Below the pieces are notes generated by a model, which saw only the letters and a list, made by a program, of their open reading frames with translations, made no database searches and was not told the DNA's origin. Both the position numbers and the translations under genes were made by a program. A stretch of DNA of 64,000 nt from a virus. Positions 12,632 through 36,945 of this stretch are shown here, in pieces. The stretch spans positions 1 through 64,000 of IMG/VR virus record IMGVR_UViG_3300044953_000426; one strand, 5' to 3'. Position 1 is the first letter of the stretch, and every line of letters starts with the position of its first letter.

Positions 12632-13492
12632 TTATAATCCCGCTAACTTCTTTAAACGAGCTATTTCTTCTTTTATATTATTTATATTTGGGGCTAAATC
12701 TTGCCAATCCTTAGCATCATCTGTTTGTGGCATAATTCCACGTTCAGGAGCACCAGGTACAGGTTGGTTTTTTTGTTGCATTTGTTCAACATTCTTCCAA
12801 ATATAATTAGCTATAGCTAATTTTGTAGATTGATCTGGAGCTTCTTGTAATGGTTTTGTTTTAGCTGCTATTTTAGCAAACACTGATCTGCCTTTACCTA
12901 TTCCTTTAGCTATAAATACTTGAACTATTTTAGGAGTAATTGTTTTAACAATATATACCCTTAAAGCATCTTTACCTATTTTAAGTAAATTACTGCCTTC
13001 AACTGTAGCTGTAGGTACTTCACCTAAATCAGCTGCGATACCCAATTGAGTAGCTTTTAAAGCTTTTATTGGATTTTTTATATCAGATAAATCAATAGCT
13101 GCAATTTTAGCTTCTGGATTTAAAGCACATACTTGAGACCACCTATGATGACCATCAATTATAAATTTACCTCCACCACCTGTGATGATACGTTTACCAG
13201 CTACAGCTATAATACCTCCTTTTAAACATATTCTAGCTGAATCAGCATTAGTCAAAGGAAATTTTAATGATTTATCTATATCAATTTCATTTTGAGTTGG
13301 TTTTAAATCACCAACTGTTGGATTTACTGAACTAAAGTTAAGTGGGTATTTATCAGATAAAGACTTAATAGCAGCTATGAATTTAGGATCTTTAATGTTA
13401 TCACCTAATTCTTTAACAAATAAAGAATAATCCATTTTAAGGAGATTCTTTAAATCTTGTTTCTCGTTTTCTTTTATAATTCTTATTCTCAT
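12632..13492 (-). CDS. ParB-like domain head protein with N-terminal leader
   Basis: The ATG at 13492 overlaps the protease stop as ATGA, so I use it rather than the longer frame to 13522. The 286-residue product starts MRIRIIKE, ending in an IxE site for prohead protease. A ParB/sulfiredoxin-like motif follows (KFIIDGHHRWSQVCAL, residues about 106-122), then an Ala-rich helical region. The C-terminus ARLKKLAGL resembles the scaffold's end. Location between protease and scaffold plus the leader suggests a head-internal, DNA-interacting protein. ParB-like domains can bind or nick DNA; activity here is unproven. Confidence 0.72.
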   Translation of the reverse strand: MRIRIIKENEKQDLKNLLKMDYSLFVKELGDNIKDPKFIAAIKSLSDKYPLNFSSVNPTVGDLKPTQNEIDIDKSLKFPLTNADSARICLKGGIIAVAGKRIITGGGGKFIIDGHHRWSQVCALNPEAKIAAIDLSDIKNPIKALKATQLGIAADLGEVPTATVEGSNLLKIGKDALRVYIVKTITPKIVQVFIAKGIGKGRSVFAKIAAKTKPLQEAPDQSTKLAIANYIWKNVEQMQQKNQPVPGAPERGIMPQTDDAKDWQDLAPNINNIKEEIARLKKLAGL

Positions 13493-14118
13493 CTTATACA
13501 ACAAATACCTGTTTGTGAACAAATAATTTCTAATATTAGGTTATTTACTTTAGTGTATTTACCAAATTGGCGTAAACCAGGTACAACACCTTCACTTAGT
13601 CCTGTTGGTCTAACAAATGCACCTTGAGTTGATGGAGTTGAAACAAAATCCCAACATAATAATTCAAAGTCATCTTGTACTTCTACTGTACCTTCACCTA
13701 ATGGTTTCACTGAACCCATACCGCGTGAAGAAATACCTACAGTAATATTATTTAAAAATAATTCTTTTAATATATTACCACTTGGTGTGGGTAATACTTC
13801 AATATCACCCATTAAATCATTACCATCCCACCATAAATGTTTAATGTTATGGCAAACATTTTTTAAATTAATAATAGAAGAGTCTGGATGGTCTAATTCA
13901 CCTAAAGCTCTATTTTCAGCAATTGGTCCAGCAATGTATTTTTCTACTTCACGCTCTAGTGTTTCTAAACGATATATTCTACCATTTTGATTTTTAGCTT
14001 CAGCACGTTGTACTACACCAGAAACAACCAAATTTTTAGATGGAGACAACTTTGCCTCATTTAATGAACGAGGCGAAGGTGAAAATGAATAATATTCTAT
14101 TAATATTTGTTTGCTCAT
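13489..14118 (-). CDS. Prohead core protease, gp21-like (peptidase S77)
   Basis: A 209-residue serine protease that cleaves scaffold, capsid and internal proteins during T4-type head maturation. The family pattern is clear: SGVVQRAEAKNQNGRIYRLE (residues about 33-52), the catalytic histidine motif GELDHPDS (H77) and the nucleophile motif VGISSRGMGSV (Ser130/131). The product contains its own [LI]xE sites (ILIE near residue 8, SLNE at 18-21), consistent with self-processing. It is shorter at the C-terminus than some homologues and ends in an odd CCIR. Its neighbours are core and scaffold genes. Confidence 0.92.
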   Translation of the reverse strand: MSKQILIEYYSFSPSPRSLNEAKLSPSKNLVVSGVVQRAEAKNQNGRIYRLETLEREVEKYIAGPIAENRALGELDHPDSSIINLKNVCHNIKHLWWDGNDLMGDIEVLPTPSGNILKELFLNNITVGISSRGMGSVKPLGEGTVEVQDDFELLCWDFVSTPSTQGAFVRPTGLSEGVVPGLRQFGKYTKVNNLILEIICSQTGICCIR

Positions 14119-14124
14119 TTATTC

Positions 14125-15189: not shown

Positions 15190-15192
15190 ATG

Positions 15193-15333: not shown

Positions 15334-15960
15334 TTATAATGTTTTAATTTTGCTTACAATAAATTCAAAAATTTCCTCATCTTCAAATCCATCTTGTTTA
15401 AAATCTCTGATGATTGCTTGAGCGCCACCAACTAAAGCTTTTAAAGCAGTTTGAGGAACTAATTCATCCATACGCTTCATAGCTTCTGGAGATAAAGCTT
15501 CTTCAGTTTTTTCTTCATTCATTCCTTTAGCCTTAATTTTAGCCGCTATGCTCATTAATTCAGGATCAATTTGCATATCTTCATAAATTTCAGCTATAGA
15601 AGTATTTAGTTTACTAGATCCAACTTTAGATAAAGCTGATTTTAATTTACCAGCCGCATCTTTAACAGCACCTACTATAGAATTACCAAACATAGCTAAA
15701 CTAGCACCTAAAGTAAGTGTACCAGCAGTAGCTAAACCTACAACAGCATTACCTAAGTCAACTATTTCTTGACCATCACCAAATGGCTCAGCTTTTAATA
15801 CATTAGCTATTTGAGGATAATTATCAATAACCCACTGGCCAATTTCTAAAGATAATTCACTACCAATATATTCATTAATAGTATCTTCTTCTCTTAATTT
15901 AGAGTAAGCTCCTAATTTATTTTCAACTAAGAATTTTTTCATGTTAAAATTGTCTGTCAT
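15334..15960 (-). CDS. Head-core protein with MxDNF-type leader
   Basis: A 208-residue protein starting MTDNFNMKKFLVE, nearly the same leader as the gene at 22116-23087 and ending in an LVE protease site. After the leader comes a mostly helical protein with an Ala/Gly-rich hydrophobic stretch (residues about 70-95, VVGLATAGTLTLGASLAMFG) that could insert in a membrane, and an acidic C-terminus. Located between portal and protease genes, it is a good candidate for an internal head protein that is cleaved and perhaps ejected. Family unknown. Confidence 0.7.
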   Translation of the reverse strand: MTDNFNMKKFLVENKLGAYSKLREEDTINEYIGSELSLEIGQWVIDNYPQIANVLKAEPFGDGQEIVDLGNAVVGLATAGTLTLGASLAMFGNSIVGAVKDAAGKLKSALSKVGSSKLNTSIAEIYEDMQIDPELMSIAAKIKAKGMNEEKTEEALSPEAMKRMDELVPQTALKALVGGAQAIIRDFKQDGFEDEEIFEFIVSKIKTL

Positions 15961-17687: not shown

Positions 17688-19577
17688 TTATTTAATTTCG
17701 TCACGGATATTATTTTCATCCAATAAATTAGTTTCAAATAAATTTGTACGACGATTTACTGGGATCCTATCAAACATTCCTTTATTTTTAAGATATGTTT
17801 CTAAAGCAAGTGGTGACCCACCTTTCCATTGAGTTTTAGCTAATGTGTCTTCTTGATCTACACCAGCTGTGCTGTATGTTTTAGCACCAATTCTATCTTT
17901 ACCAAATGGATTATCTTGACGATTAATATTTGAGGCTGAAGCTTTAGGGCGACCAACTAAATGTACAGGTTCATTTGGATTTTTTTCATTATATCCAGTT
18001 GGTACAGCGCCATCACCTCTACCCTTACCATAAGCAGTAGCTAATTGAGATGGTGTACCATATACTTGACCTGATTCATCTGGATCATTACCTTCACTTT
18101 CAATTTGAGTTAATCTAAACTTACGTTTCTTATCTTCAATAATTAAATCACGATATTCATCATATTGATCCTCACTGAAATGGAATAAGTTATCATAGAT
18201 CCATTCAGTTGGTAATAAGCTATTATCCATAATGGTACCAGCTAATTCAACTTTTTCCTTCATTAAGTTAACACGCTCTTGATCATAAATGATAGAAGGT
18301 GTAGTTAATGATAAATCAAAGTTAGTTAAATTTTCACCATCATATCCCTGGCTATATAAGTGTACTAGGGCAATTTTAGTTAACTCTGATAATAATATTC
18401 TTTGAATACGTTCTACTGTACGAGCAAATCTAATATCTTCAGCTGCTAATGTAGCTTTACCAGTTAAATCTTTCTCATAACCCATGAATGCTTTAGGAAT
18501 CTTAAGAGCAGCAAATAATTTGTCTCTTAAGTAAGCAACGTCTTCAATACCATTGTATTCTAAACCTTTAGCTGATTCAATACGAGTAGTCTGATCATTT
18601 CCTCTTACTGGTATGTAAAAGTCTTCCATCATATTCATCATATTGAATTTCAAGTTATATTGACCTGTTTGAGGATCAACATAAGGTACTTTCTTAAGTT
18701 TTTGAACTGTTTTTTGCATAAATGCTTCTACCTCATTTGGAGGAATAGCACCTACATTCATATAGAAAATACGTTTCTCAGGAGCGCGAACAATACGATG
18801 AATTAACATCGCATCTTCCATTAATACCATTTGTTTGAAAATTTTACGACCTGGCTCTAAATAGCTTCTACCATAGGGTAAATAATTAACATCACTTATT
18901 AATCTAAAGTGAGCCATTTCATAGTTTTCAAAGTGAATATCTGATGCTGAAGTACCTAAAGCGTATTGTGTTTGAGGAGCTGTAATACCAGATACTGATG
19001 TTGGGTCATATTTAAATCTTACATAAGTAGGATTTTGTGGGTTAGTACCTTCTTCTCTAATAATTGAGTAAGCTGAGAATGGTATGACATTATATATACC
19101 AAATTTCTCAGCTATTTCTAATTTAAGATAAAAGTCACCATACTTACACATATTACGAGCCCAACTCCATAAATTAAATTCAATATTTAATACATCATAA
19201 AATAGATTGTATAATATTTTTTGAATATTTTCATCACTAGAACGAATATGGAGCATTTCACCATGCTCATTTTTCAAAGTACATTCATCAGCTATAATAT
19301 CAAGTGCTGAGGCTACAATAGCATCAGTGTCCATTGATTCATAATCTGTATAAAGTTGTATTCTTAATGTTTGGTAATTATAAACATTGTTAATATTGTA
19401 AATACCAGCACCAGATGTTGTGTAAATTTTAGTAAATCGGTCTACAAGTGCATTAGTTTGTAAAGTACCTAATGACTGTATTCGATCTGTATCAATTACT
19501 CTTAACTCATCACCACCTATATTACGAATAATAACATCTGAAGAGAATAATCGTTTTAGATTGTCAAATAATCCCAT
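17688..19577 (-). CDS. Portal vertex protein, gp20-like
   Basis: A 629-residue protein with the features of T4-type portals, the twelve-subunit ring through which DNA enters the head. Recognisable segments are YTDYESMDTDAIVASALDII (residues about 76-95), WARNMCKYGDFYLKLEI, HRIVRAPEKRIFYMNVG and YLRDKLFAALKIPKAFMGYE. The C-terminal 100 residues are low-complexity and Gly/Asn-rich. It directly follows the large terminase, as in T4 apart from the tail genes found between them there. Assignment is strong. Confidence 0.9.
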   Translation of the reverse strand: MGLFDNLKRLFSSDVIIRNIGGDELRVIDTDRIQSLGTLQTNALVDRFTKIYTTSGAGIYNINNVYNYQTLRIQLYTDYESMDTDAIVASALDIIADECTLKNEHGEMLHIRSSDENIQKILYNLFYDVLNIEFNLWSWARNMCKYGDFYLKLEIAEKFGIYNVIPFSAYSIIREEGTNPQNPTYVRFKYDPTSVSGITAPQTQYALGTSASDIHFENYEMAHFRLISDVNYLPYGRSYLEPGRKIFKQMVLMEDAMLIHRIVRAPEKRIFYMNVGAIPPNEVEAFMQKTVQKLKKVPYVDPQTGQYNLKFNMMNMMEDFYIPVRGNDQTTRIESAKGLEYNGIEDVAYLRDKLFAALKIPKAFMGYEKDLTGKATLAAEDIRFARTVERIQRILLSELTKIALVHLYSQGYDGENLTNFDLSLTTPSIIYDQERVNLMKEKVELAGTIMDNSLLPTEWIYDNLFHFSEDQYDEYRDLIIEDKKRKFRLTQIESEGNDPDESGQVYGTPSQLATAYGKGRGDGAVPTGYNEKNPNEPVHLVGRPKASASNINRQDNPFGKDRIGAKTYSTAGVDQEDTLAKTQWKGGSPLALETYLKNKGMFDRIPVNRRTNLFETNLLDENNIRDEIK

Positions 19578-19607: not shown

Positions 19608-21200
19608 TTAAACTAACCAGCTAATATCCTCCATACCACCTCTACCATCATCCATTTGCCATGGACTACTTTGTTGTGGTGAGTGAGGAGAATAAAATCC
19701 ACCTGGTCCTGTAGTATATGAAATTTTTCCTATGCCTCCAAGTGAAGCGCGTGTTAAGTCCATACCTGTTTGAGAAAATTTTAAAGCTGTGTCACGTAAA
19801 AACATACCAATACCAAAAGACATTACAAGATCATCATTGTACCCGTCATTGGCTTGTGCTTTACCATTCTTCCAAACAAATGTTCTTAACTCTTCCAATG
19901 TTCTGCGTGATTGGATAATACAGGCTCTATCTCTCATGTAAGCTTCTAACTTGGCAACCACAAGAGGTCTAGTTTTAAGTGAGTTAGTAAAACCAGGAAC
20001 TAAATTATTGTTACTTCTATTTAAGAAGTTTTCCATTGTTATGTTTGCTGTGTCTGACTTAGCTGAGTAGTACAAGTTTTGGTAACCTCTTTCTATTACA
20101 GTTTGAATTGTGTCCCATCCTATGTTTGCATTTTCAATCACTAACAAAGCATTATTCCATTCAGTGGCAATAGATACAAGCATGTGTCCATAGTCACGAG
20201 TACCAACTTGTCCTTTGTACTCTTCTACTTGTTTAGCTTCATTTATATCAATAACATGACAAGCTGAATAGTCCTTACCATCACCTCTGGCCACGTCAGC
20301 TACAACCATATATTGTTTTGTATAATCTGGAAATTCCCAACGCCATAAGTTACCATCAAAACCACCTTTTGATATAGGATCTGTTTGATATGTTTGAATA
20401 TAAAAGTTTAAAATATCAGGTTCAATAACTGTATCACCTGATGTTGTAAAGTCACAATCACACTCTTGGGCAGCGTTACGAATTCCTAAAATGGCATCTT
20501 GCTCATCTCTCCATTTTTGAGTTCGTTCTGGATGTACATTCCAAGGTAATTTTAAAGATACAAATCCATTATTACCTTCTTCACCACCAATAAATGTTTT
20601 ATGGAACCAGTTACCTGTACCATATGGAGTTGAAATAGCAATACATTGACCACCAGTGGCTAAAGTTTGTTGAGCAGAGGAAAATATCTCATCTATACCT
20701 TCAATAAAAGCAGCCTCATCTAGTAACAGTAATGATACAGCTTCAGATCTACCTGCGTCTCCAGTAGCACCAATTGCTTTAATCTGAGATCCGTTTATTA
20801 ATTTTAGACTTAATTTATTGTTTTCTGAAGTATTTATTTTAAGCCAGCTGGGTAGATTATCATAGGCAAATTTTACTTTGGTGACCATGTTTTTGGCTGT
20901 TTCCTGCTTAGTAGCTATACACAATACATTCTTATCTCTTTGAAATAACATTAACCAAAATGAGTAAGCTGATACAAGTGTTGATATACCTAACTGTCTT
21001 GATTTATTTACAACAAGATATCTGTTTTTTTTAAACTGATGTAATACACCTTCTTGAAATGGATATAAATTAAATTGAATACGACCACGCTGTGGGTGTT
21101 GAATCCAATAATATTTCTTCATGAAATAAACAGGATCAGTAGCACATTTGACATATTCCTGTTTAATAATATCTTTAATGTTTTGTTGTTGATCACTCAT
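19608..21200 (-). CDS. Terminase large subunit, gp17-like
   Basis: A 530-residue packaging motor with ATPase and nuclease domains. Walker A is SRQLGIST (residues about 67-74), Walker B is SLLLLDEAAF with the catalytic Glu near 162, and a coupling motif ISTPYGTGNW follows near 190. The nuclease domain has its first acidic motif at ADVARGDGKD (Asp near 302), a second at VIENANIGWD and a third at YNDDLVMSFG. The protein acts at the portal to translocate and cut concatemeric DNA. No small terminase gene was recognised nearby. Confidence 0.95.
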   Translation of the reverse strand: MSDQQQNIKDIIKQEYVKCATDPVYFMKKYYWIQHPQRGRIQFNLYPFQEGVLHQFKKNRYLVVNKSRQLGISTLVSAYSFWLMLFQRDKNVLCIATKQETAKNMVTKVKFAYDNLPSWLKINTSENNKLSLKLINGSQIKAIGATGDAGRSEAVSLLLLDEAAFIEGIDEIFSSAQQTLATGGQCIAISTPYGTGNWFHKTFIGGEEGNNGFVSLKLPWNVHPERTQKWRDEQDAILGIRNAAQECDCDFTTSGDTVIEPDILNFYIQTYQTDPISKGGFDGNLWRWEFPDYTKQYMVVADVARGDGKDYSACHVIDINEAKQVEEYKGQVGTRDYGHMLVSIATEWNNALLVIENANIGWDTIQTVIERGYQNLYYSAKSDTANITMENFLNRSNNNLVPGFTNSLKTRPLVVAKLEAYMRDRACIIQSRRTLEELRTFVWKNGKAQANDGYNDDLVMSFGIGMFLRDTALKFSQTGMDLTRASLGGIGKISYTTGPGGFYSPHSPQQSSPWQMDDGRGGMEDISWLV

Positions 21201-22135: not shown

Positions 22136-23087
22136 CAATTTCAATGTCTTTATCATCAATACCTAATTTTTTAAGTTCATCTTCTTCACTATCTTTTCTT
22201 TTAGATCCAATAGCTGGAAGTTTATCTTCGCCTAATGCTTTAAGGATCATTCTCATTACTCCTTTAGTGTTAGTAGCTCCAAATTTATATTTGTCAAGAT
22301 CATTTAACACTTTAACATAAGTGTCATAATCTTCAGCTTTTAATTTTTCAATTTTATCTACAAGTTTCTTTACTAAATCAGGTAAACCAACTTTAGCTGC
22401 TTCTTTAGACTTAGCTTGAGCTGCTTTAAAGTCAGCACTTGATAAACCACCATTTTCAGCTTCTTTAATTGAACGACCTGTTTTAATTTGTGACTGAGAG
22501 TATTGTTTAATAATTTTATCAATTAAATCACTATTATCTACAAACCAATTACCCGCTTTAGATCCAGCGGCTGTTGATTTTGGTAATTTAATTTTAGCAA
22601 TGTCCTTTTCAGATGGTTCTTCTTCATCACCTTTTTCTGGTTGTGCTTTTTTACCTTTAATTTTACTTTTACCTATAAATAAATCTTCAGCATCACCACC
22701 ACTAACAAATATATCACCTTCACCTGGTTCTTCATCAGCAGCTTTTTCTGGTTTAATAGTTGTTACTTTTAATAATTGGTTACGAATATCAGGAGTAAAA
22801 GACCAGTTAACACCAGGGGCAGCATTTTTTTCAATGTCACTTTTTAATAATTCAACTTCCATTGGATCAACATTTTGATCTTTAGCTATTTTAATAAAAT
22901 AATTAACAACTTGTTGTTTACGATCTAATTTAAATTTACTAGGATTTTTAATTCTATCTTTAATTTGTGGAAAATCAGTGTTAAGTTTATATTTCTCTTT
23001 AGCAATACGTGCCATTTCCTTTACAGGAACTTTAATTTTAAGTTTTGCTTCAGTAATAAATTTTTTAAGATCAAAATTATCTGCCAT
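22116..23087 (-). CDS. Charged protein with MxDNF-type leader
   Basis: A 323-residue, Lys/Glu-rich protein starting MADNFDLKKFITE, a leader shared with the head-core gene at 15334-15960 and ending in an ITE site for the prohead protease. The rest is helical and low complexity, with acidic patches (residues about 125-160 and the C-terminal DKDIEIDGEEEL). No catalytic motif is seen. Leader and composition suggest an internal head protein encoded outside the main head cluster. A weak boundary motif, ATATTTATT, lies 17 bases before the ATG. Confidence 0.65.
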   Translation of the reverse strand: MADNFDLKKFITEAKLKIKVPVKEMARIAKEKYKLNTDFPQIKDRIKNPSKFKLDRKQQVVNYFIKIAKDQNVDPMEVELLKSDIEKNAAPGVNWSFTPDIRNQLLKVTTIKPEKAADEEPGEGDIFVSGGDAEDLFIGKSKIKGKKAQPEKGDEEEPSEKDIAKIKLPKSTAAGSKAGNWFVDNSDLIDKIIKQYSQSQIKTGRSIKEAENGGLSSADFKAAQAKSKEAAKVGLPDLVKKLVDKIEKLKAEDYDTYVKVLNDLDKYKFGATNTKGVMRMILKALGEDKLPAIGSKRKDSEEDELKKLGIDDKDIEIDGEEEL

Positions 23088-23636: not shown

Positions 23637-23639
23637 GTA

Positions 23640-23648: not shown

Positions 23649-23651
23649 TAA

Positions 23652-25852: not shown

Positions 25853-27808
25853 TTATTTTAGTTTAAGCTTAATAATCTCAGCTATTTTTGTTATTGAACC
25901 TATTTCAATAGTACCCTGAATTGAGCCATTGTTTCTGGCGTTAATTTTAACTAATTCATGTTCACCACCTTTATTTACTTTCATTTTGATTTCTAAACCA
26001 CCATATGTGTCTGAATCAGTTATTTCAATAGGATCAATATCACCTGTTTCATCTACTAATAATGACAATGAAGTTCCTCTTTCAAATGTTTCAACTGTGC
26101 CAGTTGTACCTTTTGAATTAGCAATAACTTTAAAGAACGCTGGTGATGTGTCACTTAAAGACATAGCAAAGGCTGCTAATGCTAGTAAAGCATCATCATA
26201 TTCTTTTGGATTTGATTGAGTAAAGAAGAAATTTATTGCTTTTAAAGCCGCGTATTTACCTCTTAAAAATCCAATATCATTTTTTAAATCACCTTTCCCA
26301 GCTTTATATGTTATATTTTCTGCTTTTTTAACATCACTACTAATTTTCTCTCTTAAACGTTCAATACCTTGTTTATATTGTTCAGCTTTATATTTTTGTT
26401 CATCACTATCTAAATTATACTCTGTTTTAGCTTTTCTGAACTTATCAAAATATGCTTTTGCTTTACCACCTTGTGCTTTTTCAAACTTAAGTGATACAGC
26501 GGTTAATGGAGCTTTTTTAGCACCCCATGTTTCATTAAAAGCTTCATTTAATACTTCAGCTGCTGATGCCCCATTTTCTTGTTCAGAAGCACTACTTAAT
26601 ATTTTTCTAGCTTTTCCTTCATCTAATATAACATAAACATCACCTGGACACCATTTATCAGCTGGTAGTCCTAATTTTTCATTAGCTAAAGCTCTATATT
26701 CATTGAATATACCTGTTCTAGTTAAAGAAGCACCACCATAAGCTTTTTTTATAGTTAATGCTTGAGACAATGGTTGATTTAAATTACTTAAAGCTGTTGG
26801 GGAGGGTTCTAATTCTTTTAAATACTCATTTAATTCATTTGTAGTATTCTCGTCTATACCCTCAACACTACCTACTATTTCCCCCAATTTAATAATCACA
26901 TCCTCAAAATTATCTTCAGTCACAGGAGTAGTAATTGATGACTCATAAAACAATATAACTAAACCTTCTTTAACATTAGTTGATGTAGCTACTGTTGAGC
27001 CACCTTTAACAGATATAATATATGATTGATCACCTTTAATTAAAGTTGTAGTACCAATTGATGACCAACCTACACTTTTTGGATTATAAGTTGCTTTAAC
27101 ATTACCTGATGATTTTATATTAGATAAAATATCTTTTCTACCTTTAACATCTCTAGCATTAACACCAGAAAAATATACTTTGTATTTATTACCTCCACTT
27201 TTATCTTGAACTACTTTTTCAGGGCCTAAAGCAGCTACATTTTTATCTTTTTTTAAGAATGATAAAATTTCAGACTCTGGACTTTCTTTAAGTAATTTAA
27301 TACTTAACTTTCCTTCAGTTAATTCTTCAGGTACTTCCTCTTCTGCTGGTGTTTCTTCTGGAGTTTCCTCTGGAGTAGAAGTCATTTCAGTGTCAGGACC
27401 TTGAGTTGATGGTGGTGTACCTAACATTAATAATTCAGCTATGCTGATAGTAACTTTTTCTAGTTCACCAATACTAGCTAACCAGTATTTTTTGCCACTT
27501 ACTTTAGCCTCATATTTGTCATCACCCATAAATGTTAAATAAAATGAGCGATTGTTGTGTAAAACAATTTTAAATACAGTTGGTTTTGGTGCCATTATAT
27601 AAACACCAACAATATAATTTCTAAAATCATCAGTTAATAATTCAACTAATGTTTTAGTTAATGTAGGATACTTTTGTAACATGAACTCTAAAGGATTAGA
27701 TTCATAAGTAATCTCAGGTGTCTCAGGAGCAGTGTCTTGAGGTACCTGATCAACTACTTCTTCTTCTTCCTTTATTGGTCTTGATCTTATAATTTTAATC
27801 TTCTTCAT
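25853..27808 (-). CDS. Large protein with leader peptide, unknown function
   Basis: I choose the ATG at 27808 (MKKIKIIRSRPIKE); an ATG three codons earlier is also possible. The 651-residue product begins with a basic leader ending in an IKE site, followed by an acidic Glu-rich stretch. A middle region has KWCPGDVYVILDEGKARKIL (residues about 390-410), then LNEAFNETWG and AVSLKFEKAQGGKAKAY, a pattern I associate with proteins of marine T4-like phages. The C-terminus is beta-rich. No catalytic motif is recognised. The leader makes it a candidate large internal head protein. Confidence 0.65.
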   Translation of the reverse strand: MKKIKIIRSRPIKEEEEVVDQVPQDTAPETPEITYESNPLEFMLQKYPTLTKTLVELLTDDFRNYIVGVYIMAPKPTVFKIVLHNNRSFYLTFMGDDKYEAKVSGKKYWLASIGELEKVTISIAELLMLGTPPSTQGPDTEMTSTPEETPEETPAEEEVPEELTEGKLSIKLLKESPESEILSFLKKDKNVAALGPEKVVQDKSGGNKYKVYFSGVNARDVKGRKDILSNIKSSGNVKATYNPKSVGWSSIGTTTLIKGDQSYIISVKGGSTVATSTNVKEGLVILFYESSITTPVTEDNFEDVIIKLGEIVGSVEGIDENTTNELNEYLKELEPSPTALSNLNQPLSQALTIKKAYGGASLTRTGIFNEYRALANEKLGLPADKWCPGDVYVILDEGKARKILSSASEQENGASAAEVLNEAFNETWGAKKAPLTAVSLKFEKAQGGKAKAYFDKFRKAKTEYNLDSDEQKYKAEQYKQGIERLREKISSDVKKAENITYKAGKGDLKNDIGFLRGKYAALKAINFFFTQSNPKEYDDALLALAAFAMSLSDTSPAFFKVIANSKGTTGTVETFERGTSLSLLVDETGDIDPIEITDSDTYGGLEIKMKVNKGGEHELVKINARNNGSIQGTIEIGSITKIAEIIKLKLK

Positions 27809-28228: not shown

Positions 28229-28606
28229 TTATTTAGTTTTTCCCCAAGTTTTTCCTTTACCTTTTTTCTTACATCCAGCAGGTGTTGGTCTACATGATGG
28301 ATATTTAGCTCTTTTTTCACCTTTCTTTCTTCCACATGGTTTACATTTTGTTTTACCATCTACTTTACGGCATGTATTACAATCAACCCATCCACCTTCA
28401 CTCCCAGCTGCTCCTCTACGACCAAACCATTTTCTTAATGATTCATCTTCTTTAAGATCTTTCCAAATTTTACCTTTACGACATCTAACAATAGCACCTG
28501 ATTTGTAAGCGGATGGTTTATCATAACGCCTATCAGCAATACGATGACATCTATCTTTTTTCTTTTCAAGCAGAGTTTCAAGTAATATGTCTGTTAAACG
28601 AATCAT
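28229..28606 (-). CDS. Cys-rich basic protein with DILxE leader
   Basis: A 125-residue protein. The leader MIRLTDILLE ends in an LLE protease site. The body is rich in Lys, Arg and Cys: KWFGRRGAAGSEGGWVDCNT (residues about 59-78), CRKVDGKTKCKPCGRKKGE and a C-terminal YPSCRPTPAGCKKKGKG. The WVDC...CGRKKGE...YPxCRP pattern resembles small Cys-rich domains of unknown function (DUF5872-like) in phages and large DNA viruses. A DNA- or RNA-binding internal protein is a reasonable inference. Confidence 0.7.
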   Translation of the reverse strand: MIRLTDILLETLLEKKKDRCHRIADRRYDKPSAYKSGAIVRCRKGKIWKDLKEDESLRKWFGRRGAAGSEGGWVDCNTCRKVDGKTKCKPCGRKKGEKRAKYPSCRPTPAGCKKKGKGKTWGKTK

Positions 28607-29160
28607 TATGCTAATAATTTAATTATATAGTTTTTAACCTCACCACTTTTAACAATTGTCAAAGCAGTTTCAAGTGTAGCAAGTGATAATTTTTTTGATT
28701 GTATAGCTTTAATAGCTGTCACACCTGAAGCCAATAATATAATAGCTACAATTACATGAAATATAAAACTAGATATTTTTTTAGCTTTAGTTCCATCTTT
28801 AACAAAACGTCTAACAATCAGTTCAAGTGGTTTTACATATAAATAATGTAATTCATCAGCTATATGACCCATTTGTTGGAGATATTTTTCAACATCTCCT
28901 TGTTTAGTTGGTTTTTTACCTAAAGTTCTGTTAACAATATTAGTAACAGTTTTACCAAAGCGAGCTATTAAACCTAAGATAGCTGGTAATGCTAAAACAA
29001 TACTAGTTGTTATTACTATTTCTTCTTTTTGATTTTTAGATTTATCTTCTAAAGAATCTTCAATATCTCTTAAAAGAGTACTCATTTGACCTTTTAAGTC
29101 ATTAAGAGCCTTCTTAGCTTCAGGATTTAATGTATCTATTTCTTTAATTCTAATTTTCAT
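28606..29160 (-). CDS. Membrane protein with KIRIKE leader
   Basis: A 184-residue protein starting MKIRIKE, with an IKE site. Two hydrophobic segments are visible: EIVITTSIVLALPAILGLIA (about 47-66) and FIFHVIVAIILLASGVTAI (about 133-151), separated by a charged loop. A membrane protein carrying a head-targeting leader would be a candidate for insertion into the host membrane after ejection. Start and stop codons abut those of its neighbours. No family is recognised. Confidence 0.66.
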   Translation of the reverse strand: MKIRIKEIDTLNPEAKKALNDLKGQMSTLLRDIEDSLEDKSKNQKEEIVITTSIVLALPAILGLIARFGKTVTNIVNRTLGKKPTKQGDVEKYLQQMGHIADELHYLYVKPLELIVRRFVKDGTKAKKISSFIFHVIVAIILLASGVTAIKAIQSKKLSLATLETALTIVKSGEVKNYIIKLLA

Positions 29161-29471
29161 TATTTCATTAATCTAGCTGTCTTATTTTTTAAATTCTTAA
29201 GTATATCTCTATATTGAGCTAACTCAGATCCTTTAGGGACTTTTTGTAAATAATCAACTAATTGATCTAATTTATCATATATAAATTTAGGATCAATATC
29301 ATATTCAATATCCCAAGAAAATTTACCTGTCTCAGGATCAATACTTTTTAATGTTGATTTAACTCCAGTTTGAGGATCAATTTTAGTTTTTCCTATCTCA
29401 ACTGAGGATGTATCAGTATATGATGCTTCAACTAACTCTTTAATAATATTTTTTAACTCAGAGCGTTTCAT
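29160..29471 (-). CDS. Small protein with KxSELK leader
   Basis: A 103-residue protein starting MKRSELKNIIKE, a leader very like that of the next upstream gene (MKKSELKQLIRE), suggesting recent duplication of the leader or the gene. After the IKE site comes a beta-rich middle (TDTSSVEIGKTKIDPQTGVK) and a helical C-terminus. Function unknown; the leader and operon place it with the candidate internal proteins. Confidence 0.66.
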   Translation of the reverse strand: MKRSELKNIIKELVEASYTDTSSVEIGKTKIDPQTGVKSTLKSIDPETGKFSWDIEYDIDPKFIYDKLDQLVDYLQKVPKGSELAQYRDILKNLKNKTARLMK

Positions 29472-29914
29472 TACTTATCAGTTAAATCTTTTAACTCATC
29501 AACTACATCTTTAGTAGCTTTTTTGTTTTTCATGTATTCCTGTACTTTAGCTAAAGTTTCTTCTTTCATTTTCTTGTAAGCTTCAGTTGCTTTCTTTACT
29601 TCATCTTTTTTCTTATCACGTTCTTTAAGTAATTTTTCAGCTAATTTTTTAGCCTTATTTTCATTAATGAATACACCTTTGATGTCTTCTGGTTTTAATC
29701 CACCAACTACTTGACGAGCAAAGTACATTACATTTTCACATTTGAAGCAAATATCATCTAAAGTAGTACTAGTAGATGGTTTTTCAACCACCCAAAATTC
29801 ACCTACTTCATCAGTTTCAGGAGCAAATCCTTCATTGATTACTTCTTCTTCAACTTTAGGTTTAACTTCTTCAATTGCTTCTCTGATTAATTGTTTTAAT
29901 TCAGATTTTTTCAT
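29471..29914 (-). CDS. Helical protein with KxSELK leader
   Basis: A 147-residue protein starting MKKSELKQLIRE, with an IRE site followed by a second one in EEVINE. Residues about 35-85 form a compact part with a Cys pair (DDICFKCENVMYFARQVVGG), and the C-terminal 60 residues are a charged coiled coil. No enzymatic motif. It is a candidate head-internal protein with a small metal- or nucleic-acid-binding region. Confidence 0.66.
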   Translation of the reverse strand: MKKSELKQLIREAIEEVKPKVEEEVINEGFAPETDEVGEFWVVEKPSTSTTLDDICFKCENVMYFARQVVGGLKPEDIKGVFINENKAKKLAEKLLKERDKKKDEVKKATEAYKKMKEETLAKVQEYMKNKKATKDVVDELKDLTDK

Positions 29915-30174: not shown

Positions 30175-30175
30175 A

Positions 30176-30484
30176 TTAATCATTTTTTGTGGCTTTTCTT
30201 ACTAAGCCCCATTTAGGTAATTTTTTACCTTGGTATTCACCATCCATTTCAAAGTTTCTAACAGTGTATTTTTTACCTGTTTTAGTATCTTCTAATGATA
30301 GTTTATATCTATTTACACCTTCTCTAGACACCTTAGTTACTTTAAGTGGTAATGACTTGTCAAGTTTCTCACCACCTAATGGAAAATTTTTAGGTGCTCT
30401 AACAACATCACCTTGTAACACTTGTCCTTTATAATTAGATAAATTTATACCTATTTCACTTAATATGTCAAACAACTTTATCAT
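30176..30484 (-). CDS. Small protein with DILxE leader
   Basis: A 102-residue protein starting MIKLFDILSE, with an LSE protease site. The rest is a small beta-rich domain (NYKGQVLQGDVVRAPKNFPL, then YKLSLEDTKTGKKYTVRNF). It overlaps both neighbours by a few bases, consistent with translational coupling in this operon. A candidate internal protein of unknown function. Confidence 0.66.
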   Translation of the reverse strand: MIKLFDILSEIGINLSNYKGQVLQGDVVRAPKNFPLGGEKLDKSLPLKVTKVSREGVNRYKLSLEDTKTGKKYTVRNFEMDGEYQGKKLPKWGLVRKATKND

Positions 30485-30801
30485 TTTTTATTTCTAATTA
30501 GAAGTTCACCTAATACTTCCATACGTCCTACTTCACGTTGAAATTCAATTTGAGTCATATTTAATGATATCTTTTTATAAGTATCTTCAAATTCTTTTAT
30601 AGCTGCTTCTTTATCAAATTTACCCTCAGCTGCTTTTTTATAGTATGGAGCTTTAACTTTAAAATGATGCCATGTTAATAATGCTAAACCACCTTTTTTT
30701 TCAGCATTTTCTGAGATTTTAGAGGCTCCTTTACCACGAATAGTAGCAAAGTCTTCAAATTTTTCTTTTACCTCTTGTAATATATCTAATAAAGTAATCA
30801 T
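30481..30801 (-). CDS. Small helical protein with DILxE leader
   Basis: I use the ATG at 30801, which overlaps the upstream stop as ATGA; the longer frame to 30813 starts with TTG. The 106-residue product starts MITLLDILQE, with an LQE site. The body is helical with LALLTWHHFKVKAPYYKKAAE (about 37-57) and LNMTQIEFQREVGRMEVLGE near the end. Family and function are unknown. Confidence 0.68.
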   Translation of the reverse strand: MITLLDILQEVKEKFEDFATIRGKGASKISENAEKKGGLALLTWHHFKVKAPYYKKAAEGKFDKEAAIKEFEDTYKKISLNMTQIEFQREVGRMEVLGELLIRNKK

Positions 30802-31307
30802 TTTTTTACACAATTAGGATATTTTTTACCAAACATTGTTTTCATTCCTTTTTGAGTATATCCTTTCCAACATTTTTCTTTTAATAAATCTTCATTCTGT
30901 TGTATTGGAGCATATCCAGAACCATAAGGTACTGCTTTACCTGATTGTGGATTTGATGTTTCTTTATTTAAACTTTTAGTTTTTTTCTTAGATGCTTCTC
31001 TACGTTTTTCAATATAATCTAAAGCACGTTTTAGTCTAGCTTTAACTTCAGGATCTTTAGCTCTACCATAAGCTGCTCTAATACGCTGATGAATTACATT
31101 TATAATTTGTGATTTACGAGCATGTGGTTTAGCTTTAAATGTCTTTTTAGCTAATGTATCTTTGACATCTTGAGCTGTTTTAAACTTTATACGTACAGTA
31201 TCTTTTGGATTTTCATCAGTATACAAACGACGGCCTGATCCTTTAGGTTTTTTACCTGTACCTTTTTTAGGATCTGCTTCGTTTAGTATTTCTAGCAGTT
31301 TTATCAT
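30798..31307 (-). CDS. Basic protein with DILxE-type leader, unknown family
   Basis: A 169-residue, very basic protein starting MIKLLEILNE, with an LNE site. Residues about 17-60 read GTGKKPKGSGRRLYTDENPK and TVRIKFKTAQDVKDT, a domain I recall from phage proteins of unknown function (DUF5824-like). The C-terminus CWKGYTQKGMKTMFGKKYPN then CV is a small Cys motif also seen in several marine phage proteins. Charge suggests nucleic-acid binding. Its start overlaps the pseudogene's end. Confidence 0.7.
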   Translation of the reverse strand: MIKLLEILNEADPKKGTGKKPKGSGRRLYTDENPKDTVRIKFKTAQDVKDTLAKKTFKAKPHARKSQIINVIHQRIRAAYGRAKDPEVKARLKRALDYIEKRREASKKKTKSLNKETSNPQSGKAVPYGSGYAPIQQNEDLLKEKCWKGYTQKGMKTMFGKKYPNCVKK

Positions 31308-31567: not shown

Positions 31568-31977
31568 AATGTTATTTCATCCGGTATTTCAAATTGCCAT
31601 ACAGTAGCCTTACCATTTTTTGACATTAATGCTGTAAGTCTAGTATTACCACCAATTAATTCTTTATATCCATCTGAATATAAAGCAACAATAGGCATTT
31701 CTACAGTACCTGTTTTTATTTGTGTTAGTGCTCTTTTAACTTTATCAGGATTTAAAGTTTTAAGAGAATTTGGTTCACTAGCATCAGTATTATTAATATC
31801 TTTTGCTGATGTTATATTTACTGATTTGCCAGTTTTGGCTAATTCTATCCATTTAGTCTTACCTAATTTTTTAAATTCAGGATAACGAGTTGCTTCTTCC
31901 CATTCAAAATCAAAATTAGGTTCTTTGTATTGAATTTTTTTTGAAATTTCTTGTAATATGTCAATTAGTTTAATCAT
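31564..31977 (-). CDS. ParB-like small protein with DILxE leader
   Basis: A 137-residue protein starting MIKLIDILQE, with an LQE site. The C-terminal half has a ParB/sulfiredoxin-like motif: KTGTVEMPIVALYSDGYKEL then IGGNTRLTALMSKNG (residues about 88-123), where the GGNTR box is the phosphate-binding site of ParB-type nucleases and CTPases. It is the second such protein with a protease-type leader here, after the one at 12632-13492. A DNA-binding or nicking role after ejection is possible but speculative. Confidence 0.72.
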   Translation of the reverse strand: MIKLIDILQEISKKIQYKEPNFDFEWEEATRYPEFKKLGKTKWIELAKTGKSVNITSAKDINNTDASEPNSLKTLNPDKVKRALTQIKTGTVEMPIVALYSDGYKELIGGNTRLTALMSKNGKATVWQFEIPDEITL

Positions 31978-31978
31978 A

Positions 31979-32638
31979 TTACCAAAATCCTGAGAATGAT
32001 GTTTTAAATCCTAATAATTTAGCATAACGAGGTAAACGACAAGACCAATATGAAGCTGTTGTTCTGTCTTTTTTCTGTGGACAGTTATGGCGTTTAGAAA
32101 ATGCTTGTCTAGCTTTAGGGTTATTTAATTTAGCCCTTAAACCACCACCAGCCATACCAAATGATACTTTCTTAATACCACCACCTGGTTTTCTAACATA
32201 CACATAGAATTTCTTAGAACCACCACGTTTTGGTTTTCCAATTGGTGGATCTTTCTTTTTTTTGTCTGCTTCTTCTAATACTTCTGTTAAAAATTCCTCA
32301 GTCAAAGGTAAGTCTAGTGGTACTTTAATACCATTGTACTCACCAAATGTTCCTATATCTGTGTTGTCAAAATAATATTGATCTGATTCACATAACTGTA
32401 CTCTACCATCATTATATAAATTTCTTACCTCAACAAATAATTTTAAAAACATTGCTGATTGAGGACGATATATTGATTCGTTTACTGGTAAGTTATTTTC
32501 AATATGATAGTACAAACCTTCAGAAATAAAGACTGGTTCTTTAGATTCATTAATAACTAATTTAGGACCATGATTGTATTCTTGGCCTACATAATTAATA
32601 ATTTTTTCAATATGCTCCTTTAATTGTACCTTATTCAT
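31979..32638 (-). CDS. Conserved phage protein with basic C-terminal domain
   Basis: A 219-residue protein. The N-terminus MNKVQLKEHIEKI fits the leader class less well (LKE). The first half is acidic and mixed; the second half is a recognisable conserved domain, PIGKPKRGGSKKFYVYVRKP, then FGMAGGGLRAKLNNPKARQA and SKRHNCPQKKDRTTASYWSC, which I recall from marine T4-like phages without known function. The basic, Cys-containing end suggests nucleic-acid binding. Internal LxE sites (FLTEVLEEAD) just before this domain may separate it after cleavage. Confidence 0.7.
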   Translation of the reverse strand: MNKVQLKEHIEKIINYVGQEYNHGPKLVINESKEPVFISEGLYYHIENNLPVNESIYRPQSAMFLKLFVEVRNLYNDGRVQLCESDQYYFDNTDIGTFGEYNGIKVPLDLPLTEEFLTEVLEEADKKKKDPPIGKPKRGGSKKFYVYVRKPGGGIKKVSFGMAGGGLRAKLNNPKARQAFSKRHNCPQKKDRTTASYWSCRLPRYAKLLGFKTSFSGFW

Positions 32639-33012
32639 TAATATGGAGTTGTTTCTTTTGCTTTTGGTAATATTTTAAATTCAACTACACCTTCAATTTG
32701 TTTAATATTTTCAACAATTTTCTTGATAGCAGTTTTAATGTCACCTTCAAGTGCTGAAGTGTCAATTTTAATATCAACATTTGTTTTATAGCGTAGTTGT
32801 CCTTCTGAGTTTGAACCAGGAATAGCGGCTTGTGAGTTAACAATAGTAACACCTGGTAATGCACGCATAGCAGATAATATATTAGTTTGATCATTAACTT
32901 TAGTGTTAGTGATCATTGAAGCTAATATTTGGAATTGTTTAGCAGCTGGTTTTGGTTTTTTAGGATCTTCAATTGGTGTGAAGTCTTCTTCTTTTACTAT
33001 GCGTATTCTCAT
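32638..33012 (-). CDS. Small protein with RIRIVKE leader
   Basis: A 124-residue protein starting MRIRIVKE, with a VKE end; the residue before the site varies but the leader is nearly identical to MRIRIIKE of the ParB-like head protein. The body looks like a small alpha/beta domain with two similar halves (MITNTKVNDQTNILSAMRAL, then VVEFKILPK) that may form an ACT- or ferredoxin-like fold. No catalytic residues. A candidate internal protein of unknown function. Confidence 0.65.
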   Translation of the reverse strand: MRIRIVKEEDFTPIEDPKKPKPAAKQFQILASMITNTKVNDQTNILSAMRALPGVTIVNSQAAIPGSNSEGQLRYKTNVDIKIDTSALEGDIKTAIKKIVENIKQIEGVVEFKILPKAKETTPY

Positions 33013-33974: not shown

Positions 33975-34550
33975 TTATATTTCTGTCTCGCGCAGTTTTT
34001 TAATATATTCTTTTACATTCTTTATTTTATCTTCATTTATCTTTCCTCCACTCCATGTCTCTACATCACCTTGTTCAGTGACATATGATTCACCTTTATT
34101 ATTTATAAAATTATTAAATGCTACTTCAAAATCATCCACCATAGCATTTTTATTATTATTTATTATTTTTTTTTCATACTCAACATATTTACCTTCTACT
34201 TTAAGTTTAGCTTCCATATCAATAACACAACTACGACACATTTTATGTATAACCCACATTTTTTTATTTACATCATCATTTTTTATTGGTTTATTACATT
34301 TAGGGCAAGCTAAAGGCATAGTGACTAATTGTCTTAATTTATCATGTTTAGTAACAGTTTGTTTGATACCATTTTTAATGGTCCATTGCTTACCATTTTC
34401 TTCCCATACATCATCTTCTTGATAGCCTTGTTGTTGTTTACTATAACCCATTTGTACTCCAGTTGCACTACCAGCATTACCTGTGATAATGTTTCTCATT
34501 CTTTGTACATCACGTTTTGAAAACTCTTTTTTTAAATTTGTATCATTCAT
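33975..34550 (-). CDS. Conserved phage zinc-binding protein, unknown function
   Basis: A 191-residue protein. The N-terminus KKEFSKRDVQRMRNIITGNA, then DVWEENGKQWTIKNGIKQT, is a pattern I recall from marine T4-like phages with no known role. A zinc-binding part follows: CPKCNKPI and, after about 20 residues, CRSC (residues about 82-105). The C-terminus is helical and Asn/Lys-rich. Its start overlaps the three-domain protein's stop as ATGA, so the two are translated together. DNA binding is plausible. Confidence 0.7.
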   Translation of the reverse strand: MNDTNLKKEFSKRDVQRMRNIITGNAGSATGVQMGYSKQQQGYQEDDVWEENGKQWTIKNGIKQTVTKHDKLRQLVTMPLACPKCNKPIKNDDVNKKMWVIHKMCRSCVIDMEAKLKVEGKYVEYEKKIINNNKNAMVDDFEVAFNNFINNKGESYVTEQGDVETWSGGKINEDKIKNVKEYIKKLRETEI

Positions 34551-36199
34551 AAACCTAAATCTTTCAATTGTTGTATTGTATCAGCAGCTGATGTATGATG
34601 AATACCTATACCACCAGCATCTTTCCAACGTTGTATATTATCTGCTCTATCATCAATTAAGATAGAGTTTGGTGTAGCAAATTCTTGTTTATGTTCTGCT
34701 TGACGTAATATAAGTTTAGTACCAGGCATTTCTCTTTTTACCCAAACAAATTTACCAATTTTAGATGATTCTTCTTTTGATGGAGCTGATAATAAATCTG
34801 GATTATATGGTTTAATATAACTCCATAATTGTTTTCCATCAGGCATCCATTTCAATTTAATCCAAAACGCAGCACCTGCTTTAGATAATGGCTCCCAAAA
34901 TTTTTCTGTTGGTATATCAAAACTAGCTTCTTTACCTGTTAATTCTTTATATCCTTTATCAAAGTCAACTAACACACCATCCATATCACAGTATATCTTA
35001 TAATCAGCTTTAGTATTAGTTACTTCTGCTTCCTCAAATATTTCTGGTCTATACTCACCAAACTTTCTTAATAAAATACCTGCAGCGGCGTTAGCTTCAT
35101 TTTCAACTGATGAACCAGTTTTACCATCTTCTTTACTTAATGGATTTAATTCATTTTGTTTTAAATGTATTAATTCATGAGCCAATGTACGTAAAATATC
35201 AGCTGTTAATCTTGGTCCTCTTACAACTAATAATTCATCACTTTTAGGATTATAAGCACCTAATGAATGTGTGTTTTTAGCTAAATTTTCATCATCACTA
35301 AAAGTAATTTTAGGTACTTTTTGTAAGTCAAGTGCTTTAGAAGTAAAATCAATAAAGTCAGCTATAACATTATTTGATGTATCTTGTGGTTTAGTTAATG
35401 TTTCTTCTAAAGTTGATTTCCACCAATTAATAGTGAATAAATCTTCTTCTATATTAACAGGTAAATGATATGGCACACGTATAATTAAATCACCATCAGC
35501 TTGATTTTCTTGTAATTGATCTACATTTAATACTGGTATTCCTAGTATTTTAAGTATATCATCATATTGTCCTTTCTGGATAACTACTTCTGGAAAACAT
35601 CCTTTAAGTGCTTCATAAGTATTTAAATATTCATTTCTAGCTTTAGAATATTCAGTTGAACTTTTATCAGTCACAGTACGTAATGCTAAAACATTCTTTT
35701 TAAGTTGTGTTACTAAACTACGTGCTTCAGTCCCTGATAAACGCTTACTCCCAGTCACTACTTTTTCTTCAATTGCTAAAGGCATTACTCTAGAGCTAAA
35801 TGCTTTTTGTAATGGGGTAAAATAATCTTGTTCTTCTACTTCTGATTTAGCACCAGCAACATATGCTTTTAATTCTAAATCATCATCAAAAACACTAAAA
35901 ATATCTTTAATTGGAGATGGATCTTCACTTATTCTAACAGTTACTTTAGCTATTGGAGATGTGGCTAAATACAAATCCCAAATACGTTTACTTTGTTCTT
36001 TAGTTATACCATCACGTGTTTTATGTCCAATTAAAACTATTACTTTAGTGATATAAGAACGAGCAGCTAAGTCTTTAACTACTCCAAAGTGTCCCTCATG
36101 TGGTGGTTTAAACCCACCTGGGTAGTAACAAATAGCAGGAGGAGTTTTTTGTTCATCCTCTTCATTTAGTTCATTTAATATTGTATTTAAATCTATCAT
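34547..36199 (-). CDS. Three-domain nucleotidyltransferase / HExxH peptidase / HAD protein
   Basis: A 550-residue protein with a DIL-type leader (MIDLNTILNE, LNE site) and three enzyme-like domains. Domain 1 (about 20-245) is a cytidylyltransferase-like fold with the nucleotide-binding HEGH motif (YYPGGFKPPHEGH, His34 and His37). Domain 2 (about 270-385) carries a zinc-peptidase motif LAHELIHLKQN (341-345) with a likely third ligand Glu366. Domain 3 (about 400-550) is a HAD phosphatase, DMDGVLVDFD (405-414). [LI]xE sites fall between the domains (IEE near 250-252, LEE near 264-266, IFE near 387-389), suggesting cleavage into separate enzymes. Linkage of these three activities is unknown to me. 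Confidence 0.8.
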   Translation of the reverse strand: MIDLNTILNELNEEDEQKTPPAICYYPGGFKPPHEGHFGVVKDLAARSYITKVIVLIGHKTRDGITKEQSKRIWDLYLATSPIAKVTVRISEDPSPIKDIFSVFDDDLELKAYVAGAKSEVEEQDYFTPLQKAFSSRVMPLAIEEKVVTGSKRLSGTEARSLVTQLKKNVLALRTVTDKSSTEYSKARNEYLNTYEALKGCFPEVVIQKGQYDDILKILGIPVLNVDQLQENQADGDLIIRVPYHLPVNIEEDLFTINWWKSTLEETLTKPQDTSNNVIADFIDFTSKALDLQKVPKITFSDDENLAKNTHSLGAYNPKSDELLVVRGPRLTADILRTLAHELIHLKQNELNPLSKEDGKTGSSVENEANAAAGILLRKFGEYRPEIFEEAEVTNTKADYKIYCDMDGVLVDFDKGYKELTGKEASFDIPTEKFWEPLSKAGAAFWIKLKWMPDGKQLWSYIKPYNPDLLSAPSKEESSKIGKFVWVKREMPGTKLILRQAEHKQEFATPNSILIDDRADNIQRWKDAGGIGIHHTSAADTIQQLKDLGL

Positions 36200-36945
36200 T
36201 TAATGAATGCCTTTATTTTAGATATGGCTTGGTCTTTAGGAGTGAATTTTAGTTTTTGTTTAAGCAGTTGTTCAATGCTTTTATTCATCGCTTCTACTTC
36301 AGCTTTTTTCTTAGCTAATTCTTCTGGTGTTTTTGGTTTACCTTTAGCCTTAGCAGTATCAAAAAATCTACGCTTTATTTCTTGGGGATCAAAGTTTATG
36401 TCAGCATCTTTTGGATCATTGTTTATTAAAACAAAGTTATCACCAAATGCATCTTGATATGTTTTAATATTACTGTTTACTTTTTCCCATGTATTTAAAA
36501 CTATACCTGGTGTTAATGAGCGTTCTCTACTTGCGTTACGTTCAAGTGAAGTAACTGGGGAAACATATATCATCACCATTATAGTTTCATATCCTAAAGC
36601 CTCTAATTCTGCTTTTTTCTTGAGTAAAGGTTTAAATGCTGCGCCTGTACCATCAATGATAATGTTGTTTAAATTAGCGAGTGCTTGGGCGTATTTTTCT
36701 TTAGTTGTTTTTTGAGCCTGCGCCATTAATTTGCCTGCTTGTGATAATTGATCAGGTGTAAAATCTTTAATATTAGTTCCTATACCAGCAGCTTTTAATA
36801 GTTCTTCATAAGTGTCATCAACATTTATGATACGGAATTTAGATAGTGGTAAAGATTTAGAAACAAAGGACTTACCAGCACCAGCAGGACCAGCCATGAA
36901 TATCGCTTGTGGCGATTGTTGCGCCTCTTTAATTCTAATCTTCAT
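36196..36945 (-). CDS. P-loop kinase / zeta-toxin-like protein with leader
   Basis: A 249-residue protein starting MKIRIKE, with an IKE site immediately before the enzyme. Walker A is AGPAGAGKS (residues about 18-26). Further motifs are FRIINVDDTYEELL, IIIDGTGAAFKPLLKK (lid region) and a basic NASRERSLTPG that could bind phosphate. The order resembles zeta toxin/AAA_33 kinases, which phosphorylate small molecules such as UDP-GlcNAc; other P-loop kinases are possible. Presence of a leader suggests it is packaged and delivered to the host. Confidence 0.75.
   Translation of the reverse strand: MKIRIKEAQQSPQAIFMAGPAGAGKSFVSKSLPLSKFRIINVDDTYEELLKAAGIGTNIKDFTPDQLSQAGKLMAQAQKTTKEKYAQALANLNNIIIDGTGAAFKPLLKKKAELEALGYETIMVMIYVSPVTSLERNASRERSLTPGIVLNTWEKVNSNIKTYQDAFGDNFVLINNDPKDADINFDPQEIKRRFFDTAKAKGKPKTPEELAKKKAEVEAMNKSIEQLLKQKLKFTPKDQAISKIKAFIK

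Follow-up and report, generated by a model that had tools for sequence, protein, structure and literature searches.

Interchangeable N-terminal leaders as probable capsid-targeting propeptides in a distant relative of phage T4, with one class matching the scaffold tail

Introduction

In phage T4, a ten-residue N-terminal sequence suffices for entry into the prohead core, with residues 4 and 7 serving in targeting and residues 8 and 10 in processing (PMC9026906). T-even phages encode diverse internal proteins behind one conserved capsid-targeting sequence (CTS) (PMC3012670), and a review proposes that the CTS lets T4-like phages gain new cargo (PMC9026906). CTS-targeted proteins of T4, the internal proteins and Alt, enter the host (PMC9026906, PMC3012670). 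Here we describe short N-terminal leaders, most of them ending in [LI]xE, on unrelated proteins encoded in a 64 kb stretch ("the window") of the 66,457-base IMG/VR virus record IMGVR_UViG_3300044953_000426. Comparison of sequences, together with analogy to known systems, makes it highly likely that these leaders are removable propeptides of the T4 type that have diversified into interchangeable classes, one of which mimics the docking tail of the scaffold.

The leaders, as probable propeptides, resemble the T4 CTS found on IPI-III and Alt and cleaved by gp21: both are N-terminal stretches of 10-19 residues with an [LI]xE end and corresponding targeting residues at −6 and −3 relative to the final E, both are paired with an S77 protease, and both precede diverse bodies. 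T4, however, tags a few proteins, mainly with a single type of leader, whereas about 15 genes of the window are tagged; across its phage group the leaders fall into five or more interchangeable classes, many of them contain two cut sites in succession, and one class copies the C-terminus of the scaffold. T4-type targeting sequences on diverse cargo were already known; the several interchangeable classes and the scaffold-tail leader appear to be new.

Three other systems offer partial parallels. In herpesviruses, the C-terminal tail of the scaffold binds the major capsid protein (MCP), and the maturation protease releases it by a cut at the M site, 25 residues from the end in herpes simplex virus 1 (HSV1) (PMC12474303). 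In the window's phage group, too, a conserved protease site lies close to the C-terminus of the putative scaffold and sets off a short tail (mostly 15-16 residues, as against 25 in HSV1; 97/108 tails), but here the tail motif also opens the proteins of dozens of cargo families as a leader, and binding of the tail to the shell is presumed by analogy. The capsid-targeting signal of DarB is also N-terminal and takes an anti-restriction protein into the P1 head; unlike in the phages studied here, no separate scaffold is identified in P1, and the signal does not belong to a set of short, swappable leaders ending in one cut motif (PMC9024508). SPN3US and phiKZ also have many head-internal proteins whose N-terminal propeptides are removed by the prohead protease, but those propeptides are mostly 111-254 residues long (two are of 20 and 24), and no common leader families are described (PMC10052503). 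Searches of the open-access literature found no report of interchangeable leader classes, of a scaffold-tail leader or of such a repertoire in a Flavobacterium-type phage group, and those for phage immuto proteomics or for cyanophage internal proteins gave nothing describing such leaders.

The phage and the comparison set

The window has a G+C content of 30.6%. Judged by its sequence, the phage is a distant relative of T4, with terminase, portal and MCP that fall in phage families. Measured by its portal, it comes closest among cultured phages to Flavobacterium phage immuto (58% identity), followed by Microcystis phage Mel-JY01 (52%). Proteins were compared within a set of 2,385, from genes called in fetched loci and genomes of relatives. 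Gene starts were called with a simple script, not a trained gene finder, and the start codons of three genes need trimming, to 12632-13492, 30481-30801 and 25853-27808.

Leaders are shared and exchanged between unrelated proteins

Evidence that the leaders are modules came from pairs of proteins with unrelated bodies, defined as having no BLAST similarity at E<10. In the comparison set, 476 such pairs, from 241 pairs of body families, match at 8 or more of the 12 residues at positions 2-13. The same test applied to internal segments starting at positions 31, 43 and 55 gave zero pairs. Both partners carry an [LI]xE tag in 458 of the 476 pairs, ruling out shared tail-fibre N-termini as the source of the signal. 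When clustered, the leaders form the classes KSEL (33 body families), DIL (18), DNF, RIKE and LAG, the last with the consensus MKKQLNEIKRMQxLAGIINE.

Additional evidence came from orthologous bodies. The leader class differs in 71 orthologous-body pairs, which together link DIL, KSEL, DNF, LAG and RIKE. For instance, the kinase encoded at 36196-36945 starts with the RIKE leader MKIRIKE, while five of its orthologs in IMG/VR instead have the DIL leaders MVKLINLLRE, MIRLINLLLE, MISLVQLLKE, MVSLVKLLKE and MYKLRDIILE; in Pelagibacter phage HTVC008M, a distantly related homolog starts with MIPFILKE. Leaders also follow domains when genes are split. The HAD domain of the 34547-36199 protein is a separate gene in several relatives and has a leader of its own (MIKLMSLLKE in locus L208, MIALKDLFLE in L202), and the DUF5872-like protein of 28229-28606 corresponds to two genes in L202, each with one leader. 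In phage record G002, an unbroken run of eleven genes (97.7-102.5 kb) has KSEL, DNF or DIL-like leaders before different bodies, and phage immuto has the same leader types beside its terminase and S77 protease genes.

The spacing within the leaders resembles that of T4. Positions −6 and −3 from the cleavage glutamate correspond to CTS residues 4 and 7, and hydrophobic residues are enriched there at N-terminal relative to internal sites (pooled; 54% versus 33% at −6, 53% versus 32% at −3). DIL leaders have L4 in 89% and I/L7 in 89%; RIKE leaders fit the pattern poorly. T4 leaders such as MKTYQEFIAE were picked up by the same scan. A second [LI]xE lies within 14 residues in 32/43 KSEL and 29/56 DNF leaders (background 0.19 and 0.08).

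The LAG leader shares its motif with the tail of the putative scaffold

The window encodes a set of head genes, listed here with the two C-termini that carry the LAG motif:

9468..11129, minus strand: MCP (phrog_138, E=2e-69); N-terminus MSTVQSLIE
11176..12498, minus strand: putative prohead scaffold, 5' of the MCP gene, proposed from position, composition and conserved C-terminus
11179..11226, minus strand: C-terminal tail of the putative scaffold, PIVE|GDAAIRRMQQLAGIIK, at the end of 11176-12498; the LAG-leader motif of relatives
12635..12667, minus strand: C-terminal LAG-type tail NIKE|EIARLKKLAGL, at the end of the 12632-13492 protein
13489..14118, minus strand: S77 (T4 gp21-like) prohead protease (PF03420, E=2.4e-29 at 13591-14040); N-terminus MSKQILIE
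17688..19577, minus strand: portal protein (phrog_213, E=1.1e-59)
19608..21200, minus strand: terminase large subunit (phrog_2, E=1.5e-48)

The gp21-like protease that a sequence-only reading of this DNA had placed at 13489-14118 is borne out by the PF03420 match. The motifs GELxHP and GxSSRG are common to this protease and T4 gp21, and 18 of the 21 records, those of phages immuto and Mel-JY01 among them, contain an S77 protease.

A family search with the putative scaffold gave no match. The putative scaffold gene preceding the MCP gene ends in a LAG tail, defined as [RK][MW]xxLAG[IL] plus 0-5 residues, in the window and in 10/10 fetched relatives. Among 108 distinct C-ends of scaffold type, 97 carry [LIV]xE at a distance of 10-19 residues from the end, usually 15-16. 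The same motif opens 84 LAG-leader proteins from 67 body families, 72 of which have [LI]xE just after it. A degenerate DNA search of IMG/VR for RMQ[KQ]LAGI found at least 109 distinct sites; among the matches listed, at least 71 are extreme C-ends, at least 36 are N-termini (one of which allows a longer reading frame) and at least two are internal. T4 gave no match to the LAG motif. LAG leaders and the tail of the putative scaffold thus carry one motif, which marks both where the scaffold ends and where cargo proteins begin, and this is the strongest clue to the role of the leaders. By this match and the herpesvirus analogy, LAG-tagged cargo probably enters the head by imitating the scaffold tail.

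Tagged genes concentrate near the head genes

Between 25853 and 36945, [LI]xE ends at residues 6-18 in 14/19 genes, compared with 4.3 ± 1.8 when residues 2-40 are permuted; none of 2,000 shuffles reached 14/19. A few of the 14 matches are not true leaders (in 31418, for example, the motif lies in the conserved body). Genes outside the head and cargo block have the motif in 3/42 cases, with 5.3 expected. For the region from terminase to MCP, the tag rate inside versus outside is 19/41 versus 3/36 in the window and 21/30 versus 31/197 in phage immuto. The inside rate is the higher in 11 of 11 genomes examined, with p < 0.05 in eight. Whole-genome tag counts in T4 are 55 versus 37 in a control window, so that [LI]xE alone is too weak for calling single leaders. 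When leaders are counted with strict class patterns, the window has 15, relatives have 3-18 and T4 has 1. The set of ejected proteins that the sequence-only reading called unusually large is therefore large against T4 but typical within the phage group.

Leaders in the window

The individual leaders are as follows:

13469..13492, minus strand: RIKE leader MRIRIIKE of 12632-13492 (the Mel-JY01 ortholog starts MGILKQLLKE)
15922..15960, minus strand: DNF leader MTDNFNMKKFLVE of 15334-15960, within the head cluster
23049..23087, minus strand: DNF leader MADNFDLKKFITE of 22116-23087
27767..27808, minus strand: RIKE leader MKKIKIIRSRPIKE of 25853-27808, a two-domain protein of 651 residues
28173..28226, minus strand: DNF-type leader MQDNFNIHSWKLKQVINE of 27795-28226, with zinc-ribbon cysteines in the body
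28577..28606, minus strand: DIL leader MIRLTDILLE of 28229-28606, with a DUF5872-like basic body
29140..29160, minus strand: RIKE leader MKIRIKE of 28606-29160, a putative membrane protein
29436..29471, minus strand: KSEL leader MKRSELKNIIKE of 29160-29471
29879..29914, minus strand: KSEL leader MKKSELKQLIRE of 29471-29914
30455..30484, minus strand: DIL leader MIKLFDILSE of 30176-30484
30772..30801, minus strand: DIL leader MITLLDILQE of 30481-30801
31278..31307, minus strand: DIL leader MIKLLEILNE of 30798-31307, with a very basic body
31948..31977, minus strand: DIL leader MIKLIDILQE of 31564-31977
32615..32638, minus strand: weak leader MNKVQLKE of 31979-32638 (ortholog leaders MSRLTNLIKE, MIKLLKLLSE and MERLRKLIKE)
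32989..33012, minus strand: RIKE leader MRIRIVKE of 32638-33012, ending in VKE and so without a strict [LI]xE
36170..36199, minus strand: DIL leader MIDLNTILNE of 34547-36199, with HxGH nucleotidyltransferase and HELIH motifs and a HAD 5'-nucleotidase body
36925..36945, minus strand: RIKE leader MKIRIKE of the kinase 36196-36945, with an AAA_33/Zeta P-loop body

All 16 leaders spelled out in the sequence-only reading were found at the N-termini it named, and its statement that almost all end in [LI]xE holds strictly for 15, the exception being MRIRIVKE, whose ortholog in locus L091 starts MRIRIIE. The genes fall into six with DIL (28229, 30176, 30481, 30798, 31564 and 34547), five with RIKE (12632, 25853, 28606, 32638 and 36196), three with DNF (15334, 22116 and 27795) and two with KSEL leaders (29160 and 29471). 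The same reading had described three leader types and two extra sequences: DIL, RIKE and DNF stand and the extra pair forms KSEL, but there are at least five classes. LAG was overlooked because in the window its motif occurs solely at C-termini (11176-12498 and 12632-13492).

Within the block, 29911, 33012, 33640 and 33975 have no leader, nor do the adjoining enzymes at 23115-25779. Because these enzymes lie in the same block, the tag belongs to genes and not to place. As candidate leaders, 29911, 31418 (REFDENIDP) and 16797 (LFELLVRQ) were rejected, since their [LI]xE belongs to the conserved body. The 49-residue product of 31418 (31418-31567) is a shortened copy of that of untagged 29911 (29911-30183), and each gene overlaps the start of a DIL-tagged gene, an arrangement that suggests duplication of a two-gene unit. 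The untagged protein of 33975-34550 has a conserved N-terminus, LKKEFSKRDVQRMRNIITG, that resembles a LAG leader without the glutamate, and on this resemblance it could be an uncleaved version of that leader.

Cargo bodies

The tagged bodies are varied. A kinase among them, proposed in the sequence-only reading, was recovered as the Pfam AAA_33/Zeta match of 36196-36945, and its zinc ribbon is visible as cysteines in 27795. ParB-like proteins (taken as 31564 and 12632) gained no support from the search: no ParB/Srx Pfam family appeared up to E = 5, and there was one unrelated weak match. No relatives of 31564-31977 were found among the fetched loci. The DUF5872 similarity of 28229 falls below the Pfam cut-off. 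Strongly basic tagged bodies (30798, +28; 28229, +26) fit the expectation for proteins packed with DNA.

Fold prediction for 25853-27808 gave a mean predicted local distance difference test score (pLDDT) of 52 and is usable only for residues ~32-130 and parts of 175-360; pLDDT is low in the leader and the interdomain linker, and comparison of the model with the PDB gave no match at E <= 0.001. For 31979-32638, mean pLDDT was 70.6 and the good matches were solely uncharacterised phage proteins. The low-confidence linkers of the two proteins (residues ~131-174 and 110-130, respectively) contain [LI]xE sites, and the predictions suggest that these linkers are probably disordered. Given such sites in the linkers, and the occurrence of the domains as separate genes in relatives, the S77 protease may split two-domain cargo into two products.

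Neighbouring genes

Between the terminase gene and DNF-tagged 22116, two genes at 21387-22159 resemble a spanin pair: the first product has an N-terminal membrane anchor and a coiled coil, and the second has a signal peptide, a coiled coil and a C-terminal hydrophobic stretch. Two tail-fibre-like genes (1904-2854 and 3183-4322) have a common N-terminus, W.KVIVSGSNA.LN.L, a module unrelated to the leaders. The C-terminal half of 36957-37502 is a tandem GKRGRPKMDPALKK repeat of several AT-hook-like copies. The sequence AATATTTAT lies 13-27 bases before several starts (36945, 23636, 23087, 19577, 15189 and 41472) and occurs 13 times on the minus (coding) strand and twice on the plus strand; it is a possible promoter element. 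In G002, genes for GroEL-like (547 residues) and GroES-like (100 residues) proteins at 102801-104739 (L166/L167) adjoin the run of tagged genes.

Alternative explanations

The leaders might simply be the conserved first helices with which unrelated domains begin, containing [LI]xE by coincidence, an outcome that the sequence-only reading itself had named as its refutation. The proteins of 29911, 31418 and 16797 do have the motif within a conserved body, but leader identity between unrelated bodies at 476 pairs to none, different leaders on one body in different phages (71 pairs), and a leader on each split domain contradict this explanation for the main set. It is very improbable overall, and could apply to single genes only. 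Shared 5' ends could also be nucleic-acid elements, such as translation initiation or recombination sites, with the peptide incidental. Consistent with this idea, the leaders of G002 at 97.7-102.5 kb are near-identical in DNA, so recent copying occurs. Across all pairs, however, 32% of the identical leader residues are encoded by differing codons, compared with 43% expected under independence, and the LAG peptide is also found at C-termini, far from start codons, making an explanation at the level of nucleic acid extremely improbable.

Other alternatives accept the leaders as peptides but differ on their purpose. With a leader receptor that is only presumed here, they could be cleavable signals for another structure or compartment, such as the tail, a membrane or a replication compartment. 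This is very improbable, given that tail-part genes of the window lack leaders (3/42), that the LAG class equals the scaffold tail, and that the leaders end in the head protease's own cut motif. A stronger contender, which we still regard as unlikely, is that the tagged proteins are targeted to the prohead core and act there, as core or scaffold accessories or as DNA-binding internal proteins, and do not reach the host as effectors. The very basic bodies of 30798 and 28229 and the tagging of the head-cluster genes 15334 and 12632 are consistent with a core function. The kinase and the nucleotidyltransferase/HAD protein are implausible as purely structural components, and T4 internal proteins and Alt, which are likewise targeted, reach the host (PMC9026906, PMC3012670).

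Several observations count against the reading of the leaders as capsid-targeting propeptides. The [LI]xE motif is weak, with about 7-19% of 12-residue windows containing it by chance, and regional enrichment is non-significant in G004, G008 and G009 (p 0.11-0.16). The count with strict class patterns, 210 versus 6 shuffled, is partly circular because the patterns were drawn from the same data set; the pair test is not circular. RIKE, being short and with 10 members only, is the least certain class. Shell binding by the scaffold tail is an analogy with herpesviruses and not a result obtained here, and a search of the open-access literature found no virion proteomics for any relative. Against these stand the sharing of leaders, the swaps, the split genes, the linkage to head genes with an S77 protease, the identity of LAG with the scaffold tail, and the T4 spacing, all of which support capsid targeting as the sequence-only reading had proposed.

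Proposed mechanism

Unrelated cargo with exchangeable cut-site tags, together with a copy of the scaffold tail, suggests that the capsid-targeting leaders most likely load proteins into the head for delivery to the host. During prohead assembly, a leader of 7-24 residues would dock its cargo on the forming core or inner shell, for the LAG class probably via the same peptide as the scaffold end. The other classes can take the place of LAG on a given body and so appear to serve the same end, perhaps by way of different core proteins. The cut sites and the presence of the S77 protease suggest that this enzyme would then cut after [LI]xE, stripping both the leaders and the 15-16-residue scaffold tail. 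One protease cut on leaders and scaffold tail would thereby free cargo and shell while the scaffold is destroyed. As in T4, mature cargo would stay packed beside the DNA in the head and enter the next host cell by ejection.

Implications

We lean, if only modestly, toward a broader proposal: environmental T4-like phages of a widespread group fill their heads with proteins from dozens of changing families, using a few interchangeable docking peptides as a small code, one or more of them copied from the scaffold tail, with the protease that frees the scaffold freeing the cargo by the same cut. If this is true, the LAG leader would offer a testable answer to the question of how capsid-targeting sequences dock, namely by imitation of the scaffold tail, and several kinds of short natural tags would be helpful tools for packing phage heads with proteins. 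The first 10-20 residues would also reveal which unrecognised genes of common environmental phages enter the host at the start of infection, and it is in this delivered set that one would expect counter-defence and takeover proteins.

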